Shown piece after piece: positions 1,190 to 55,090 of a stretch of DNA of 64,000 bases. The notes under the pieces are model-generated. The model made no database searches, was not told where the DNA came from, and saw only the letters and a list, made by a program, of their open reading frames with translations. Within the stretch, counting starts at the first letter, position 1; each line of letters begins with the position of its first letter. The translations under genes were made by a program, and so were the position numbers. This DNA is from Rhodopirellula sp. (GTDB lineage Bacteria; Planctomycetota; Planctomycetia; Pirellulales; Thermoguttaceae): contig JAAYEH010000380.1 of NCBI GenBank assembly GCA_012728855.1, positions 1-64,000 of the forward strand, read 5' to 3'.

Positions 1190-1280
1190 CCTAACAAAAC
1201 GGGGACTGGCTCCGAGGCAAACATTCGCAGGACGCGCAGAATAGACGTCACGGCGAGGTGCCTGTCCCCGTTTTGTTAGG
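1190..1280. repeat. Bipartite hairpin repeat, copy 1 (full)
   Basis: The outer arms CCTAACAAAACGGGGA and TCCCCGTTTTGTTAGG pair perfectly. Inside them the left arm continues CTGGCTCC and the right arm GGTGCCTG, which pair except for two T-T mismatches. The loop is about 43 bases. The copy sits 54 bases after the stop of the beta-helix gene. The same inner arms recur at 5088-5188 and 7944-8038. Confidence 0.85.
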
Positions 1281-1545
1281 ATCTCTAAGGCTATATCGCC
1301 GTTCCAGGCCCCGCCTACTTGACGTGCGTTCCGGAACCCACTACCTTCGCACAAGGCAACCACGCGTTCATCGCTTCAGTATCTGCCGTAAAACGGCAAA
1401 GCTTGACCGTGGAAAACCACCGACAATTGGAGATAAGAACATGGGTTACGGCTGGGATCATTTCCCGACAACCTCTTCTTCTCCCTTAGCATTGTTCGAG
1501 AAACAACCGTCACAATTGAAATCAACCGCTGGGCGTTCTTCCTTC

Positions 1546-1622
1546 ATCCGTGCCCCGGCCCTGCTATCCGTGCTACTCTGTGGTGGTTCTGGCTGCACGG
1601 ACGGCATAGCCGGGGCACGGAT
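1546..1622. repeat. Intergenic hairpin element of a second type
   Basis: ATCCGTGCCCCGGC at 1546 pairs perfectly with GCCGGGGCACGGAT ending at 1622, and an inner CCGTGC/GCACGG pair continues the stem after an 8-base mismatched stretch. It lies just upstream of the HEAT-repeat gene. The open frame running through it is therefore probably not coding, which matters for choosing that gene's start. Confidence 0.7.
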
Positions 1623-1647
1623 AAACGAGAAAGGCCCGGGTAGGAGG

Positions 1648-3717
1648 GTGTACAAACAAGGAGCGTGCCTGCTCGTCGTCCTCTTGGCCGTCGCCGCGTC
1701 GGCACGGGCGGATTCGGGCGGAAATGCCGCATTGGATGCCGCGTTTCAGACCTTGAACGCGTTGGAGTTGGGGCAAGACCTTGGAGCTTTCGGCTCCATC
1801 GATCGGGCGGTCACGCAATCGCACCAAGATGAACACACTCGCGCGGATCTTGAGCGACGGTTCCTCACGGTTCTCCAAGGCAGCGCAACGGATCTGGCCA
1901 AGGACTACGCCTGCCGGCAGTTGGCGATCGTCGGCTCCGATGCCTCGGCGCCCGTCCTGGCCGGGTTGCTGACGAATCCGCGTCTCTCGTACATGGCTCG
2001 CTACGCCTTGGAAGGCATCGGCGGTGCGGCGGCGACCGCGTCGCTTCGCGAGATGCTCGCCAAGACCGAGGGGCGGCAGAAGATCGGCGTGGTGATTTCC
2101 TTGGGAAGGCTTGCCGATGCCGATGCCGTCCCGCTGGTGGCAGCCTCGTTCGACAAGGGCAACAACGAACTTCGCGAGGTCATCCTGGTTGCCCTGGGAC
2201 GGATCGGCACGGCCGCGGCCGCCGAGGCCCTTGAGTCGTTGGCTGCCGGCGCGAGTGACGGACTGCAAAACGTGCTGATCGACGCCCAGCTCGATGCGGC
2301 AGAATCGCTCAGCCGACAAGGGCAGTTCGAAGCCGCTGCCGGTGTATGCCAGCGGCTCTTGTCGGCGGAATCCCAGCGGGTACGGGCGGCTGCCTTCCGC
2401 GGGCTCATTCGAGCGAAGCCTTCCGAATCACTGATCATGATCCGCGACGGCTTGGCTGCCGAAGAGCCTTGGAAGCGGGCCGTGGCGGCGGATTGCGCGG
2501 CCGCGCTCGATACACCAAAGCAGATCGATTCCATCGCCGCGGCGATTGCGGATCTGCCCGCAGCCGGCAAGATCGCGGCTCTGGTAAGCCTGAAGGGCCG
2601 CTCTCGTCCGGCGATCCGCACCGCAGCGCTGGCGGCGCTGAAACATCCGGACAGCGAGGTTTGCGTCGCCGCGCTGGATGCCTTGATTGCTTCGGCAACG
2701 GCGGAGGACGTCGCGGGATTGGCCGATTTGGCGTCCAAAACCCAAGACACCCGAGTTCGTGATGCGGCGCTCGACACGCTGCGGCTGATGCGCGCGGCCG
2801 GGACCGACGCCGCGATGATCGAGTGGATGGACAACCGCGCGGACCTCCAACCGTTTCTCGTGCGATGCGCGCTGGCGCGTCGCTGCGGTGAGTTCGTGCC
2901 TGCTTTTCTCAAGGCGGCAGAAGCGGCGAACGAGGCGACTCGGCGGGAAGCGCTGGAGGCGCTGGCGATCATGGCGACGGAGAAGGATGCCGAAGCGCTG
3001 GTCCGGCTTCTCTGCAAGGCATCGGCAGGCGACGAGCGCGAAGCGGCCGGTCGCGCCGTGTGGATGAGTTGCCTGCAGATCGCCGATCCGGCCGAGCGGG
3101 CCGCGCCGTTGCTGGTGGCGATGGAGAAGGCCGACGCGGCGGCTCAGTGCGCCCTGCTCCCGGCGCTCGCGCGGGTCGGCGGCGAGAAAGCGCTCGCCGC
3201 GGTCCGTTCGGCCATGAAAAGCGCCGATCCGACCGTTCGCGACGCGGGCTACCGGGCGCTGGCCAACTGGCCCGACGCCACGGTGGCGGACCAATTGCTC
3301 GACATCGCCAAGACGAGCGACGTGGAATCGTACCGGGTCTGGTCACTGCGAGCCTACGCCCGCGTGGTGGCATTGCCCGGGGATCGACCGCCGCAAAAGA
3401 CGTTCGAGATGCTCGACGACGCCATGAAGCTGGCGTCGCGTCCTGAAGACAAGGAGCTGATCCTTTCGCGGCTGGCGGCGGTCCGCGTGCCGGATGCGCT
3501 GGCAAGACTGCTGGGCTACGTGGACGATGCGGCGCTAAGAGGGGCGGCCGTTCCCGCTGTGTTTGAGGTGGCGAAAGGACTCAGCCAGTCGCATCCCGAA
3601 CAGGCGCGCGCTGCCCTAGAGAAGATCGCGCCGCTGGCGACGGACCCGGCGCTGCTGCAACAGATTCCCAAAGTGCTCCGCGACATTGAATCGCGCAAAA
3701 AAGGCGAGAAGCCGTAG
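1648..3717 (+). CDS. Secreted HEAT-repeat protein
   Basis: About 689 residues with a cleavable signal peptide (LLVVLLAVAASARA, then D) followed by alpha-helical HEAT or PBS-lyase-type repeats for almost the whole length. Recurring blocks are of the form VRDAALDTL, IRTAALAAL, VRDAGYRAL. HEAT solenoids bind partner proteins, so the role here is unknown. The frame is open further upstream: an ATG at 1441 has a good GGAG site, but that extension runs through the hairpin element at 1546-1622 and looks non-coding. The GTG at 1648 directly precedes the signal peptide, although AGGAGG abuts it. Nine bases separate it from the next gene, so it probably heads an operon with the oxidoreductase and ThuA-like protein. 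The start is uncertain; the fold is clear. Confidence 0.75.
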   Translation: MYKQGACLLVVLLAVAASARADSGGNAALDAAFQTLNALELGQDLGAFGSIDRAVTQSHQDEHTRADLERRFLTVLQGSATDLAKDYACRQLAIVGSDASAPVLAGLLTNPRLSYMARYALEGIGGAAATASLREMLAKTEGRQKIGVVISLGRLADADAVPLVAASFDKGNNELREVILVALGRIGTAAAAEALESLAAGASDGLQNVLIDAQLDAAESLSRQGQFEAAAGVCQRLLSAESQRVRAAAFRGLIRAKPSESLIMIRDGLAAEEPWKRAVAADCAAALDTPKQIDSIAAAIADLPAAGKIAALVSLKGRSRPAIRTAALAALKHPDSEVCVAALDALIASATAEDVAGLADLASKTQDTRVRDAALDTLRLMRAAGTDAAMIEWMDNRADLQPFLVRCALARRCGEFVPAFLKAAEAANEATRREALEALAIMATEKDAEALVRLLCKASAGDEREAAGRAVWMSCLQIADPAERAAPLLVAMEKADAAAQCALLPALARVGGEKALAAVRSAMKSADPTVRDAGYRALANWPDATVADQLLDIAKTSDVESYRVWSLRAYARVVALPGDRPPQKTFEMLDDAMKLASRPEDKELILSRLAAVRVPDALARLLGYVDDAALRGAAVPAVFEVAKGLSQSHPEQARAALEKIAPLATDPALLQQIPKVLRDIESRKKGEKP

Positions 3718-3726
3718 GAGAAAGCC

Positions 3727-5088
3727 ATGACCAGCAAACAACCCCGCAAGCTCCGCCTCACGCGTCGCCAGATGCTCCTGCGAACTGCCGCCGCGGCCGG
3801 ATCGCTTGCCGCCCCGCTGGTGATCCGTCCGGCGGCGCTGGGCATGAACGGTACGACGGCGCCCAGTGAGCGGATTACCGTCGGGTCCATCGGCGTCGGC
3901 ATGATGGGCCGGGGGCATTTCCGCATCGCCGCGGGATATCCGGATGTGCAACTGCTGGCTCTGGCCGATGTCGACCCGTGGCGCCGCGACCACTCGACCC
4001 AGGTGCTCCAGGAGGTCTACGGCGCCCAGCAGCCGAGCGGCCGCTTCCACGGCTTCAAGGCGTACAGCGATTTCCGCGAATTGCTCGACCGCGACGACAT
4101 CGACGCCGTGATTATCGCCACCGGCGAGCGGTGGCACCCGGCGATTGCGGTGCGGGCCGCCAAGGCCGGCAAAGACATCTACTGTGAAAAGCCGATCTCG
4201 CTGACCATCCGGCAGGCGCGGACGATGGCCGAAACGGTGCGGCGGCACAACCGCGTCTTCCAGACCGGCCTGCAGCAACGCAACAGCGCCGAGTATCTCA
4301 AGGCGTTTGAGATGGTGGACGCCGGCCGCATCGGCGACGTGAAGCTGGCCTATGTGTCGGCGAGCGGGGTGAGTCAATATCTCAACCTGCCTGCCGAACC
4401 GATCCCCGACGGACTCGACTGGGAGATGTGGCTCGGCCCCTGTCCCTGGCACCCCTACAACTACCGCTATCACCACAGCGGCCCCCCGAAGAACGTGGTT
4501 CCCTGGAGCTGCAACCGGGCTTTCGGCGCCGGAGGATTTACTTCGGGGCTGGTTCACAACCTCGACTCGGCGCATGCGGGGCTCCGCAAGGATGGCGACG
4601 GTCCGGTCGAGATCACACCGGCCGGCATCAATGGTGAGCCGTCGCTCACATTCCGCTATGCCGACGGCACGCGGATTGTCTGTGCCACGAGGTTGGAGGA
4701 GGGCAAGCATGTCGTCCCAGAAGGCTGGGACGTGAAGACGCCGATCGCCAATTTCGGCGTTCTCTTTGTCGGCGACCGCGGGTGGATCCACGTCGAACGG
4801 TTCGGGCTGCTACGCTGCTATCCCGCGAATCTATTGGACGAAGAGCCCCCCAAGCTTCACAGCGTGGAAGCGAACCATCGCGATTGGCTCGACTGCATCC
4901 GCACCCGCCGCCGCCCGCGGGCGGACGTGGAGATCGGCGCGTGCTCGACCATTCTTTCCCACTTGGGCTGCATCGCCCTGTGGACCGGCAGGGCGCTGGC
5001 TTGGGATCCCGTCAAGGAAGAGTTTTTGAACGACCGCGAGGCAAACTCGTTGCGAGCCCGGGCAAGCCGCGAGCCGTGGAATGTGTGA
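3727..5088 (+). CDS. Gfo/Idh/MocA family oxidoreductase with Tat signal
   Basis: 453 residues. The N-terminus carries a twin-arginine signal (LTRRQMLL, residues 11-18) and a hydrophobic Ala-rich stretch, so the folded, cofactor-loaded enzyme is exported. The Rossmann motif GVGMMG (56-61) binds NAD(P), and CEKPIS around residues 153-158 holds the family's conserved Glu-Lys-Pro, whose lysine is part of the active site. The C-terminal half is the usual alpha/beta substrate domain. Members oxidise or epimerise sugars and inositols; the substrate cannot be read here. A good Shine-Dalgarno (AGGAG) lies 8 bases before the ATG. It sits between a HEAT protein and a ThuA-like protein, a combination frequent in planctomycetes and suggestive of periplasmic keto-sugar chemistry. 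Confidence 0.9.
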   Translation: MTSKQPRKLRLTRRQMLLRTAAAAGSLAAPLVIRPAALGMNGTTAPSERITVGSIGVGMMGRGHFRIAAGYPDVQLLALADVDPWRRDHSTQVLQEVYGAQQPSGRFHGFKAYSDFRELLDRDDIDAVIIATGERWHPAIAVRAAKAGKDIYCEKPISLTIRQARTMAETVRRHNRVFQTGLQQRNSAEYLKAFEMVDAGRIGDVKLAYVSASGVSQYLNLPAEPIPDGLDWEMWLGPCPWHPYNYRYHHSGPPKNVVPWSCNRAFGAGGFTSGLVHNLDSAHAGLRKDGDGPVEITPAGINGEPSLTFRYADGTRIVCATRLEEGKHVVPEGWDVKTPIANFGVLFVGDRGWIHVERFGLLRCYPANLLDEEPPKLHSVEANHRDWLDCIRTRRRPRADVEIGACSTILSHLGCIALWTGRALAWDPVKEEFLNDREANSLRARASREPWNV

Positions 5089-5188
5089 GAGGCTGTCCGG
5101 AAACGGGGACTGGCTCCCGGATGTTGTGTTTTCGTTCGTATACTTGCACAAAATGCAGGGTGCCTGTCCCCGTTTCCGGGCAGCCTCT
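5088..5188. repeat. Bipartite hairpin repeat, copy 2 (full)
   Basis: It begins on the last base of the oxidoreductase stop codon. The outer arms AGAGGCTGTCCGGAAAC and GTTTCCGGGCAGCCTCT pair with one T/C difference (a G-U pair in RNA). The inner arms GGGGACTGGCTCC and TGCCTGTCCCC pair with the two conserved T-T mismatches. Confidence 0.85.
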
Positions 5189-5214
5189 GACAACGCAGAC
5201 ACCGGAGGAATCGC

Positions 5215-6111
5215 ATGAACCGCTGTATCGCCTGGCTATGCGTCGTCGCTTGCGCGACGGCCGCCGCGGCCCAGGGCCCCCGCGGCGAGCTTTCGCCCGA
5301 CGCCAAAGCCAAGATTGAAGCCGTGTTGCCCGCCAAGGCGCCTGCCGCCGCCGAAAAACCCCGCAAACTGCTCATCTACGACGGCAATGTCGATTACGGC
5401 GGCCACGGTTCGATTCCCTATGCGAACTACGCTTTCATGCGGATGGGCGAAAAGACGGGGGCGTTCACGGCCGAGGTCTCCCGCGATCCGCCCGTATTCC
5501 AGAAAGACCACCTCTCGCAATTCGACGCGGTCTGCTTCAACAACACCGTCGGCAATCTATTCACCGACCCCGGTCTGCGGCAGAACCTGCTCGATTTTGT
5601 TCTCAGCGGCGGCGGGCTTCTCGGCATCCACGGCACGACCGCAGCCTTCACCGATTTCCGGCACGGGGGCCGGGAAACATGGCCGGAGTTCGGGCGGATG
5701 CTGGGCGCGCGGGGCACGGCGCATCTGGCCCCGGACGAACGGGTTTTCATCAAGCTCGACTCCCCGGACCACCCGCTCAACCGGCCGTTCGGCGGAAAAG
5801 GGTTTGAATACGTCGGCGAGTTCTTTCGAGTCCGCGATCCCTACAGCCGCGACCGGGTTCATGTCCTTTTCAGCATCGATACGGCCAAAACGGAGCTTCC
5901 GCCCAAGGGCAGCAAGCCCGGCATCGAGCGGGAAGACGACGACTACGCCCTGGCCTGGACGCGCAGCCACGGCCGAGGACGGGTCGTCTATTCGACGATC
6001 GGCCACCACCCGGCCGACTTCATGAACCCGACAATCCTCCAGTTTTATCTTGGCGCCATTCAGTTTGTCATGGGCGACCTCGACGGCACGACGACTCCCG
6101 GCAACCGGTAA
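5215..6111 (+). CDS. Secreted ThuA-domain protein (glutamine-amidotransferase-like fold)
   Basis: 298 residues with a signal peptide (CIAWLCVVACATAAAA). From about residue 45 it reads as a ThuA domain: KLLIYDGN opening strand, a 'FDAVCFNNTVG' block, then FVLSGGGLLGIHGTT, the segment that corresponds to the nucleophile-elbow region of class I amidotransferase-like folds. As usual in ThuA proteins no catalytic Cys is present there. Later blocks are HPLNRPFG and GRVVYSTIGHHPADF. ThuA proteins are linked to disaccharide (trehalose) use in rhizobia and are very abundant in planctomycetes beside Gfo/Idh/MocA enzymes, which fits the upstream neighbour. GGAGG lies 6-7 bases before the ATG. Confidence 0.85.
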   Translation: MNRCIAWLCVVACATAAAAQGPRGELSPDAKAKIEAVLPAKAPAAAEKPRKLLIYDGNVDYGGHGSIPYANYAFMRMGEKTGAFTAEVSRDPPVFQKDHLSQFDAVCFNNTVGNLFTDPGLRQNLLDFVLSGGGLLGIHGTTAAFTDFRHGGRETWPEFGRMLGARGTAHLAPDERVFIKLDSPDHPLNRPFGGKGFEYVGEFFRVRDPYSRDRVHVLFSIDTAKTELPPKGSKPGIEREDDDYALAWTRSHGRGRVVYSTIGHHPADFMNPTILQFYLGAIQFVMGDLDGTTTPGNR

Positions 6112-6138
6112 ATGCGACACTCATTCTATCGCCGATGC

Positions 6139-6936
6139 TTACTCGTTCTCCCGGGACCGAAAAGCTTCCAAACGTTCGCGGAGCCAGGGGACATCGGCCT
6201 CGTGGAGCGGCGGGCGGAGCGGCTTGGTGTAGTCCAACGACAGGTCGTAGCGGGCGCGATCATAAACGGTCGTAAAGACGGCCTGAAGATCCAGAGGTAC
6301 ATCGGGGTCTTCCGTCCGGAGCGGTATGGGAATTGTCGGCAGCGGATCTCGCAATGTCCAGGCATACACCTCCCCGCGCGGCCGACGGTAGCGACGGCTG
6401 ACGATGGCATAGTAATCCGCGGATGGCAGCGGAGTCCTGGTCGGCAATCGTTCGCCGCCGCGCAAAAGGTCAATTTCCACCAGATGCGTTTGGCTTCGGA
6501 GCACTTCCTCTCGCTTCTGGAGGTACTCGCGCCGCCCGTCGCTTCCACGGTGTTTGTTTGAAGGCGAAAGCAACTCCAGGACCGTCACAACTTCCCATGT
6601 CTCTCGCGCGCGGATCACCAGGTACGTCTCGCGTTTCTCCTCGGGGATTGGCAGGAGGCATTCCGTGGCCGAGATCGTCGCCACAACGTTTTCCTCGCGC
6701 GGCGTTGCACCGCTCCCGCTGTTCTCCGCCAACAGCAACGCAACGTCGGCGCGCCCGATCCCGTCGTCGACGCCATCTGCATGTTCGAAGTAGACGCGAC
6801 GTTCGACGCGCACCACGTATCGCGGCTCAACACGCGGCGAAAGCGCCTCGCGAATCACGGTGTTGTAGGTCGTGTGAAAATCCTCCCACTCCTCTATTTC
6901 AAGGAATGGATCCATGCCGGGCAGCGGGCTGGACAT
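6139..6936 (-). CDS. DUF4058 family protein
   Basis: 265 residues. The family signature MSSPLPGMDPFLE followed by W-x-DFH at the N-terminus is diagnostic of DUF4058, a family of unknown function common in cyanobacteria and planctomycetes. A second conserved block, VTVLELLSPSNKHRG with a following R-x-x-Y-x-x-K-R, resembles the E...S-x-x-N-K pattern of restriction-like nuclease folds; that reading is inference. The frame extends 30 codons upstream, but the ATG at 6936 matches the family start and has GGGAG 9 bases before it. The gene is transcribed away from the LRR gene. Confidence 0.88.
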   Translation of the reverse strand: MSSPLPGMDPFLEIEEWEDFHTTYNTVIREALSPRVEPRYVVRVERRVYFEHADGVDDGIGRADVALLLAENSGSGATPREENVVATISATECLLPIPEEKRETYLVIRARETWEVVTVLELLSPSNKHRGSDGRREYLQKREEVLRSQTHLVEIDLLRGGERLPTRTPLPSADYYAIVSRRYRRPRGEVYAWTLRDPLPTIPIPLRTEDPDVPLDLQAVFTTVYDRARYDLSLDYTKPLRPPLHEADVPWLRERLEAFRSRENE

Positions 6937-7067
6937 CGCGGTTTCTCCCACGGGGTAGGCGAAGGTACTCTCGCTATTATCGCCCCGGGCGACGATTTCC
7001 ACAATGGAGCCAATTCTCTCTGTCATGCCATTTTTCCGCCCGAAGAAGAACTTCGGCAGAAAGAGTA

Positions 7068-7096
7068 TTGACAGAAAAATGGTGTTGGCTTGAAAT
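7068..7096 (+). promoter_or_regulatory. Probable sigma70-type promoter for the LRR gene
   Basis: TTGACA at 7068-7073, a 17-base spacer, then the weak -10 TGAAAT at 7091-7096. It lies about 65 bases before the ATG at 7160, in the divergent interval between DUF4058 and the LRR gene. Confidence 0.4.
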
Positions 7097-7159
7097 CAGC
7101 AAGCCGCGAAGATTAGAATGGGATCGCAAACTGACCCAGCCACAAATGTGGGGAGAGCC

Positions 7160-7942
7160 ATGAAAATTCCAGCCTACCTGTTTGTGATCGTCGTCGCGGC
7201 GCGTCTCCTCGACGGCGCGTTGTGCTCGATCGCCGTAACCGCGGAGACGGCGATTTCTCCGCAAACCACTCCGTCCGACGACGCCGGCGCCGTTACGGCT
7301 CTGGAAGCCCTTTCGGCCCGGCTGGTCAAGGACTACCGGGGTGTGGTCCGCAGCGTCGAGATGAGCGGGCCGGAGATCACCGATGCCGCGATGGTGCATC
7401 TGAAAGGGCTGCCCAACCTGGAGTGGATCAGGATTATGGACTGCTCGGTCGGCGATCAAGGGCTTGCCAACCTGGCGGGAATAACCGGGTTGCGGCGAGT
7501 TTACTTGCGCGGTGTGGCCGTCAGCGACGAAGGGCTCGCCCATCTGACGCCGCTCGAAGGCTTGGAAGCGCTGGCCCTGGAAGAGACTCGCGTTACCGGC
7601 GCGGGACTGAAACACCTCAAGGACATGCATGATCTGCGGGTGGTGAACCTGGGCGGCTGCCAGCTCAACGACGCCGCTCTGGTCCACCTGCAGCCGCTGA
7701 AGAGCCTGGAGACGCTGGCCCTGCAGAACGCCCACATCAGCGGCGACAGCCTTTCGCACCTCTCCGGACTCGGCGAGCTTCGCGTGCTGAATTTGAACGA
7801 CTGCGAGGTAACCGCCGACTCGCTGGAGCACCTACGCCCGCTGGCCAACCTGCGGATTCTGCGGTTGAAGATGTGCCCCGTTACGGAGGAAGAAGCGAAG
7901 CACTTCAAGCAACAGATGCCGGGGTTGGCGGTCTTCCGCTAA
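7160..7942 (+). CDS. Secreted leucine-rich repeat protein
   Basis: 260 residues: a signal peptide (YLFVIVVAARLLDGALCSIA), then about seven 24-residue leucine-rich repeats of the type L-x-x-L-x-x-L-x-L-x-x-x-x-V/I-T/S-D/G-x-x-L-x-x-L. This is the short RI-like or cysteine-free LRR form frequent in planctomycetes. The repeats run to the C-terminus. LRR solenoids bind proteins; no enzymatic domain is present, and the partner is unknown. The ATG at 7160 has GGGGAG 4-9 bases upstream; an in-frame ATG at 7118 has no such site. The stop is followed at once by a bipartite hairpin repeat. Confidence 0.8.
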   Translation: MKIPAYLFVIVVAARLLDGALCSIAVTAETAISPQTTPSDDAGAVTALEALSARLVKDYRGVVRSVEMSGPEITDAAMVHLKGLPNLEWIRIMDCSVGDQGLANLAGITGLRRVYLRGVAVSDEGLAHLTPLEGLEALALEETRVTGAGLKHLKDMHDLRVVNLGGCQLNDAALVHLQPLKSLETLALQNAHISGDSLSHLSGLGELRVLNLNDCEVTADSLEHLRPLANLRILRLKMCPVTEEEAKHFKQQMPGLAVFR

Positions 7943-7943
7943 A

Positions 7944-8038
7944 AGCCTATCCCAAAACCGTCGGGGACTGGCTCATTTTGCGGAGTCTTCGGAGCAAAAT
8001 GTGCCTGTCCCCTTCTCCTCGAGGTTTTGGGATAGGCT
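7944..8038. repeat. Bipartite hairpin repeat, copy 3 (full)
   Basis: It starts one base after the LRR gene stop. The outer arms AGCCTATCCCAAAACC and GGTTTTGGGATAGGCT are perfect. The inner arms GGGGACTGGCTCATTTTGC and GCAAAATGTGCCTGTCCCC match except for two T-T mismatches at the same positions as in copies 1 and 2. The loop-side ATTTTGC/GCAAAAT pair is unique to this copy, showing that the loop-proximal stem also varies in a paired way. Confidence 0.88.
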
Positions 8039-8084
8039 CTAAGGCAACCGGCGTTCGATCCACGGTTTTATGAAAGGTATTCTC

Positions 8085-34559: not shown

Positions 34560-34606
34560 CCCGGGCAAGCAAAGCGAAGCGAGGGCGTCTGTCCCCGCTT
34601 TGCCGG
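34560..34606. repeat. Bipartite hairpin repeat, decayed copy 4
   Basis: Starts 6 bases after the ATPase stop. The right arm survives as GGCGTCTGTCCCCGCTTTGC, with two changes from the consensus GTGCCTGTCCCC. The left arm is mostly lost; only short outer pieces (CCGGGCAA, CTTTGCCGG) can still pair. Confidence 0.5.
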
Positions 34607-44122: not shown

Positions 44123-44190
44123 GGAGTTGTGCATCCCTGAAAGAGCTTTTCCCCAAAGTGGCGCAATGCGGGGAGGTAAAAACTCGCAAG

Positions 44191-44218
44191 CTATCCGGAA
44201 ACGGCGACTGGTTCCCGG
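44191..44218. repeat. Bipartite hairpin repeat, partial copy 5 (left arm only)
   Basis: CTATCCGGAAACGGCGACTGG and TTCCCGG match the left half of copy 2 (GTCCGGAAACGGGGACTGGCTCCCGG) with few changes, and both diagnostic T positions are kept. No right arm follows. It ends 28 bases before the amidinotransferase remnant. Confidence 0.55.
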
Positions 44219-44245
44219 ACGGGATGGGTTGGGCACGGATAGGAT

Positions 44246-55044: not shown

Positions 55045-55073
55045 GAGGCTGTCCGGAAACGGTGACAGGCACC
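55045..55073. repeat. Bipartite hairpin repeat, partial copy 6
   Basis: GAGGCTGTCCGGAAAC is identical to the outer arm of copy 2, but it is followed by GGTGACAGGCACC, the complement of the right inner arm. The copy is therefore a right half in minus orientation, without its left half. Confidence 0.55.
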
Positions 55074-55090
55074 CTACATCTTGTGTAAGC

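Follow-up and report, generated by a model that had tools for sequence, protein, structure and literature searches.

The described repeats closest to those considered here are the terminal inverted repeats associated with TIRYTs, which carry the motif GGGGWSAS (Di Nocera et al. 2013, PMC3733652) and belong to TnpA-REP subclass 2.1 (PMC6006769). The repetitive extragenic palindromes (REPs) of Escherichia coli have conserved mismatches in their stem, repair of which severely reduces or abolishes processing by TnpA-REP, and the enzyme is strand specific (PMC8266576); REPs have been described as species-specific (PMC6006769). Our subject is a hairpin with two T-T mismatches, present in three full copies in a 64,000-nucleotide stretch of a Rhodopirellula sp. 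genome (contig JAAYEH010000380.1, positions 1 to 64,000; hereafter the window). By its sequence, this core hairpin appears to have its nearest known counterpart in the TIRYT repeats with GGGGWSAS, from which one of its arms departs, and several unrelated families of miniature inverted-repeat transposable elements (MITEs) carry it in the source genome. We propose, with a probability of about 0.6, that the core is a putative recognition hairpin for an HUH/Y1 single-strand transposase, of the REP-associated tyrosine transposase (RAYT) or TIRYT kind, that was captured and spread by MITEs.

The core is made up of a left arm, GGGGACTGGCTC, and a right arm, GTGCCTGTCCCC, both located by exact match and identical in the three window copies. 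GGGGAC-T-GGC-T-C pairs with G-T-GCC-T-GTCCCC, a pairing in which T faces T twice on the top strand (at left-arm positions 7 and 11) and A faces A on the bottom strand. Single-strand folds, as DNA and as RNA, pair the arms in all three copies with both T's opposite T, which bears out what a preliminary description of the window had said of common inner arms and two T-T mismatches. The DNA folds have z-scores of -6.1, -10.5, and -9.0 for copies 1, 2, and 3, with 0 of 200 shuffles equally stable. Across the source genome (11.3 Mb in 721 contigs, with an estimated contamination of 8.9%), exact left arms number 370, versus 1 for the reversed control. A search for both arms returned 290 exact two-arm copies, versus 0 for the reversed control, and the hairpin is present roughly 300 to 400 times. 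A literature search for the arm sequences returned three papers, all on unrelated subjects.

How constant the mismatches are was examined with a search that left the T positions unspecified, which yielded 261 hairpins outside the window genome. T-T occupied position 7 in 247 of them and position 11 in 230, but the exact core had been the means of retrieving most of these loci, which makes the 64 variants the fairer sample; among these variants, T-T was present at position 7 in 50 and at position 11 in 33. Several variants keep T-T through compensated stem changes (AGGGAC/GTCCCT, GGGGTC/GACCCC, TGGGTC/GACCCA, and CGGGAC/GTCCCG). Because the compensated variants GGGGACTGGTCC/GGACCTGTCCCC and GGGGACTGTCCC/GGGACTGTCCCC lose the second mismatch, the T-T at position 7 is the more constant of the two. 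Of 81 matches within the window genome, some of them due to chance, 65 have T-T at position 7. Pairs in the inner stems are kept at a rate of 0.56 versus 0.29 when shuffled (maximum 0.355 in 500; 55 distinct stems), while outer positions pair more weakly (0.37 versus 0.29). A sister hairpin family, GGGGACTGGTCC...GGACCTGTCCCC, with a single T-T, was seen at L118:5976, L129:2991, L139:14852, L152:18392, and L166:2102 and in loci L230 and L236.

Beyond the core, outer stem and loop sort the copies in about 1.1 Mb of the window genome and in the fetched loci into a few families, A to F. The terminal inverted repeat (TIR) is GAGCCTATCCCAAAACC in family A, the commonest in the genome sample, GGCATGGTTCAAAAAC in family B, GAGGCCCTAACAAAAC in family C, and GAGGCTGTCCGGAAAC in family D; families E and F have a common outer ACTCAAACTGTAA and are frequently fused head to head. 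Direct repeats of 3 bp, of the TNA type, flank families A, C, and D. Identical 3-mers flank 22 of 35 family A copies, versus 11 expected on re-pairing, and no other length shows duplication; the corresponding counts in the small samples of families C and D are 3 of 9 and 3 of 3. Family B has 8-bp direct repeats instead, such as GGAATCGG and GCCATTCA.

The copies in the window are palindromes of 97 to 101 bp on the forward strand, with the direct repeats TAA, TGA, and TAA at the ends of copies 1, 2, and 3, respectively. Copy 1 (1185-1285) belongs to family C, with TIRs GAGGCCCTAACAAAAC and GTTTTGTTAGGATCTC, core arms at 1201-1212 and 1258-1269, and target-site duplications at 1182-1184 and 1286-1288. 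Copy 2 (5089-5187) has the family D TIR, arms at 5105-5116 and 5160-5171, and duplications at 5086-5088 and 5188-5190, and copy 3 (7943-8039) has the family A TIR with its first base mutated, arms at 7963-7974 and 8001-8012, and duplications at 7940-7942 and 8040-8042. These bounds correct those first given for the same, real copies (1190-1280, 5088-5188, and 7944-8038). The left duplications of copies 2 and 3 are the stop codons of the upstream genes, so the placement at or just after a stop codon that had been remarked on is real and is explained by TNA target duplication. In two relatives (G001 and G013) the orthologue of the gene preceding copy 2 has its stop at the same TGA, with no element there, and in G001 no element follows the orthologue of the gene before copy 3. 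Because these orthologous sites lack elements, the insertions are lineage-specific. The outer stems are complementary, as the preliminary description stated, but copy-by-copy compensatory drift of one element is ruled out, since the TIRs sort the copies into a few families with duplications of their own.

Contig C99 of the same genome holds an IS5-family insertion sequence (IS) with inverted ends GGGCCTATCCCAAAAC, the target-site duplication TAA, and a frame-damaged PF13340 transposase. Its ends match the family A TIR at 15 of 16 positions, and neither the core nor a core-like arm was found at them. Because this IS has matching ends but no core, family A looks like an IS5-type MITE with a foreign interior. 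An autonomous-type element with matching ends was found for family A only. Chimeric copies, in which the core has a left end from one family and a right end from a second, occur at L024 (B/E), L131 (B/C), and L426 (B/D), which suggests that the common core may let families swap ends. We also looked for widely spaced arms enclosing a transposase and found none in the 1.1-Mb sample, where arms that lack a partner are either decayed copies or matches due to chance. The sole candidate for a full-length IS end bearing the core, on contig C492, is truncated; 30 more family D loci are MITEs plus a few one-armed ends. That truncated, IS-like left end (L120:7589) combines a D-type TIR with GGGGCTGGCACC and with the first part of a reading frame (MMDDAWQSYAFLEPYLPRT).

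The core also exists apart from these ends. In genomes G052 and G056 it occurs in copies that lack any outer stem, and units of only 29 to 30 nucleotides occur in Geomonas and Prevotella; the core is the part that the families have in common. Among the GTDB matches listed, the exact core is present in isolates of Geomonas, Citrifermentans, Desulfoscipio, Diplocloster, and Singulisphaera and in metagenome-assembled genomes (MAGs) of several further phyla. MAG labels may err, and the claim of a distribution across phyla rests on the isolates (Bacillota, Thermodesulfobacteriota, and Planctomycetota). By our own arithmetic, 24 fixed bases with the given range of gaps should occur by chance less than once in 257 Gb. 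Inverted core pairs, resembling REPINs, lie about 25 nucleotides apart in Desulfoscipio and about 38 bp apart in G024. The exact core is also found in 18 contigs listed as viral in IMG/VR (L429-L446).

Adjacency to RAYT genes is clearest in Geomonas azotofigens and G. paludis, where a RAYT gene (NF047646, above cut-off) is bordered on each side, at a distance of up to about 110 bp, by exact core hairpins, the downstream one beginning at the RAYT stop codon. G. azotofigens has 27 copies genome-wide, three of which lie within 200 bp of the RAYT gene (P of about 1.5e-7 once corrected by a factor of 6 for the RAYT hits). We surveyed some 80 Y1 genes, drawn from the window genome, from its relatives, and from genomes that bear the core, taking the best hits per genome. 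Many are flanked by near-perfect inverted repeats, one lying about 55 to 60 bp ahead of the start and the other at the stop. These repeats follow the pattern AAAAGGGG[A/T]C..., and in Pirellulales they are clade-specific (AAAGGGG[A/T]C...). Repeat type tracks the RAYT protein tree clade by clade (loci L081-L110 and L450-L476 included), and these types could serve to predict substrate specificity. One clade has the repeat GGGGACAGGCGC, 11 of 12 bases of which are identical to the core right arm; its members are in G003, G031, G034, and G052, all core-bearing, with 67, 72, 7, and 13 copies, respectively. As a pattern among the best hits per genome, this clade seems to be confined to core-bearing genomes. 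The core-free genomes G005 and G057 have RAYTs with CGGGACAGGTCTAA repeats, and contig C214 of the window genome has a decayed RAYT with AAAAGGGACAGGCGCATA.

Two further loci in these data concern RAYT genes. On contig C271 (L114:10137), at the contig end, a left half of the core is joined directly to the beginning of a reading frame for a RAYT of the GGGGACAGGCGC clade. A second dispersed palindrome family, GGGGTCGGGAGTCTTTTT...AAAAAGACTCCCGACCCC, has no mismatches and occurs at L112:8794 and 9653 (contig C305) and in L115, L158, L161, L162, and L168; the C305 RAYT is directly bracketed by two of these palindromes.

In the mechanism we propose, the transposase would bind and cut the folded top strand, and the T-T mismatches, by analogy with E. 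coli REPs, may break the symmetry of a near-perfect palindrome and so mark the substrate strand. The hairpin is the cargo of MITEs whose ends would be moved by DDE transposases, an IS5 type producing TNA duplications and another type producing 8-bp duplications. MITE movement together with exchange between families at the core could have given rise to the several hundred intergenic copies. The preliminary description had already suggested a REP-type element recognized by a transposase or an RNA-binding protein; its folded structure with fixed T-T pairs, the compensated stem changes in other genomes, and the Geomonas RAYT adjacency agree with the former. Position, with 13 of 48 intergenic copies in divergent gaps, lends no support to the latter.

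Several observations weigh against a RAYT-type substrate. RAYTs are present in the window genome, but the matching GGGGACAGGCGC clade was found there only as decayed or truncated members. The one intact RAYT with nearby cores, on contig C527, belongs to a clade with a different repeat (GGGGTCAGAAC); as a partner it is weakened, in that orthologues of this gene, which has three cores nearby, carry GGGGTCAGAAC repeats and have no nearby cores. Genome G114 has 88 copies and just two Y1 hits, neither matched by the RAYT profile, G108 has a single weak hit beside its 22 copies, and a profile search of core-rich G119 and G122 gave no RAYT hits, although gene absence in MAGs is weak evidence. The same core lies beside RAYTs of different clades, contrary to one RAYT per REP. 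The repeats around most of the RAYT genes examined are perfect and free of mismatches, so T-T is not a universal feature of such enzymes, and no GTAG or GTGG guide was found beside the hairpin on either strand (0 of 269 copies).

Of the places first called partial copies (34560, 44191, and 55045), the last is a one-armed remnant of a family D end (GAGGCTGTCCGGAAACGGTGACAGGCACCCTACATCTTGTG, 55045-55085, reverse strand), recognized by comparison with the GAGGCTGTCCGGAAAC family, and the second is a degenerate family D left end (GCTATCCGGAAACGGCGACTGGTTCCCGG, 44190-44219, forward strand). The site at 34560-34606 has only a right arm, GCGTCTGTCCCC, within a GGCAAGC/GCTTTGCC palindrome; the inverted repeat of an Acidobacteriota RAYT (L325) finishes with these same 12 bases. 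A RAYT profile search of the window gave no match, in keeping with the earlier statement that it holds no REP-type transposase gene.

Three other explanations deserve attention. The core could simply be the inner part of related IS ends, a binding site for a DDE transposase with no tie to RAYTs, and the copies plain MITEs. The TIRs and target duplications here are of DDE type, and the truncated end on C492 does have GGGGCTGGCACC beside a D-type TIR. We nevertheless think this unlikely: the core is common to families with 3-bp and with 8-bp duplications, occurs without an outer stem or as a bare 29- to 30-nucleotide unit, adjoins RAYT genes, and is missing from the C99 IS5 element whose ends match family A.

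Selection by the host is another possibility, most obviously for a bidirectional terminator or an mRNA-stabilizing hairpin. By home-made gene calls, 48 of 56 placed copies are intergenic, the other 8 lying inside genes, against about 79% of the sequence being coding; a T-rich run often follows the hairpin, and no open reading frame is required. An intergenic bias is, however, expected of any tolerated mobile element, copies are missing at orthologous sites in relatives, and Rfam returned no match for the hairpin. Gap types (14 convergent, 13 divergent, and 21 tandem) show no convergent bias, which argues against a dedicated terminator role and leaves an RNA or transcription element improbable. 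Still harder to credit is a site for a nucleoid or topology protein amplified for chromosome organization, in the manner of gyrase or IHF at E. coli bacterial interspersed mosaic elements (BIMEs). High copy number, intergenic placement, exact conservation of both arms, and inverted pairs in some genomes would suit such a site, but a copy number ranging from 0 to 290 among relatives, with many zeros within the same family, fits a housekeeping role poorly.

To our knowledge, RAYTs have not yet been caught moving REPs, and how REPs spread is an open question. We also advance a bolder idea, tentatively: that RAYTs from several clades and phyla may all act on one REP-type hairpin, of 24 fixed bases with two T-T mismatches, which would spread in unrelated MITEs that exchange ends through it. 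If true, a core common to clades and phyla would be unexpected, given that REPs are regarded as species-specific, and residence in DDE-type MITEs would give a REP-type unit a second route to multiply without an enzyme of its own. A hairpin conserved letter for letter across phyla, along with natural compensated variants around the fixed T-T mismatches, also offers a ready substrate series for RAYT assays.

Like the TIRYT repeats, the core is dispersed in the genome and has ties to Y1 genes bracketed by GGGG[A/T]C repeats, its close variant GGGGACAGGCGC bracketing the RAYTs of the four core-bearing genomes named above as well as a decayed one in the window genome. The right arm (reverse complement GGGGACAG) fits GGGGWSAS, while the left arm, GGGGACTG, does not, being altered at two bases that create the two T-T mismatches. 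Unlike those repeats, the core recurs across phyla with its exact 24 bases and sits inside MITEs, and whereas the subclass 2.1 transposase has a C-terminal helix-turn-helix domain, no second Pfam domain was found in the four RAYTs scanned (the Geomonas protein, the G031/G003 RAYTs L397 and L398, and the truncated L041). With the GTAG-type REP/RAYT systems (E. coli REPs, REPINs, and BIMEs) it has in common a short intergenic hairpin in hundreds of copies, a stem mismatch, inverted pairs in some genomes, and, in Geomonas, a RAYT gene flanked by copies; it differs in occurring in more than one species and in longer composite palindromes, and because none of the 269 copies has a GTAG or GTGG guide, it does not count as a canonical GTAG REP. 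The IS5-family MITEs are resembled by families A, C, and D in their inverted ends, TNA duplication, and lack of a gene, with a same-genome IS5 element to match family A, but they enclose a RAYT-type hairpin missing from that IS, and family B has other ends and 8-bp duplications. The double palindromes of Pseudomonas (PMC3733652, Figure 8B) likewise join a REP-type unit to unrelated inverted repeats in hundreds of copies, yet theirs contain degenerate GTAG REPs, whereas the core here is intact and common to several types of end.

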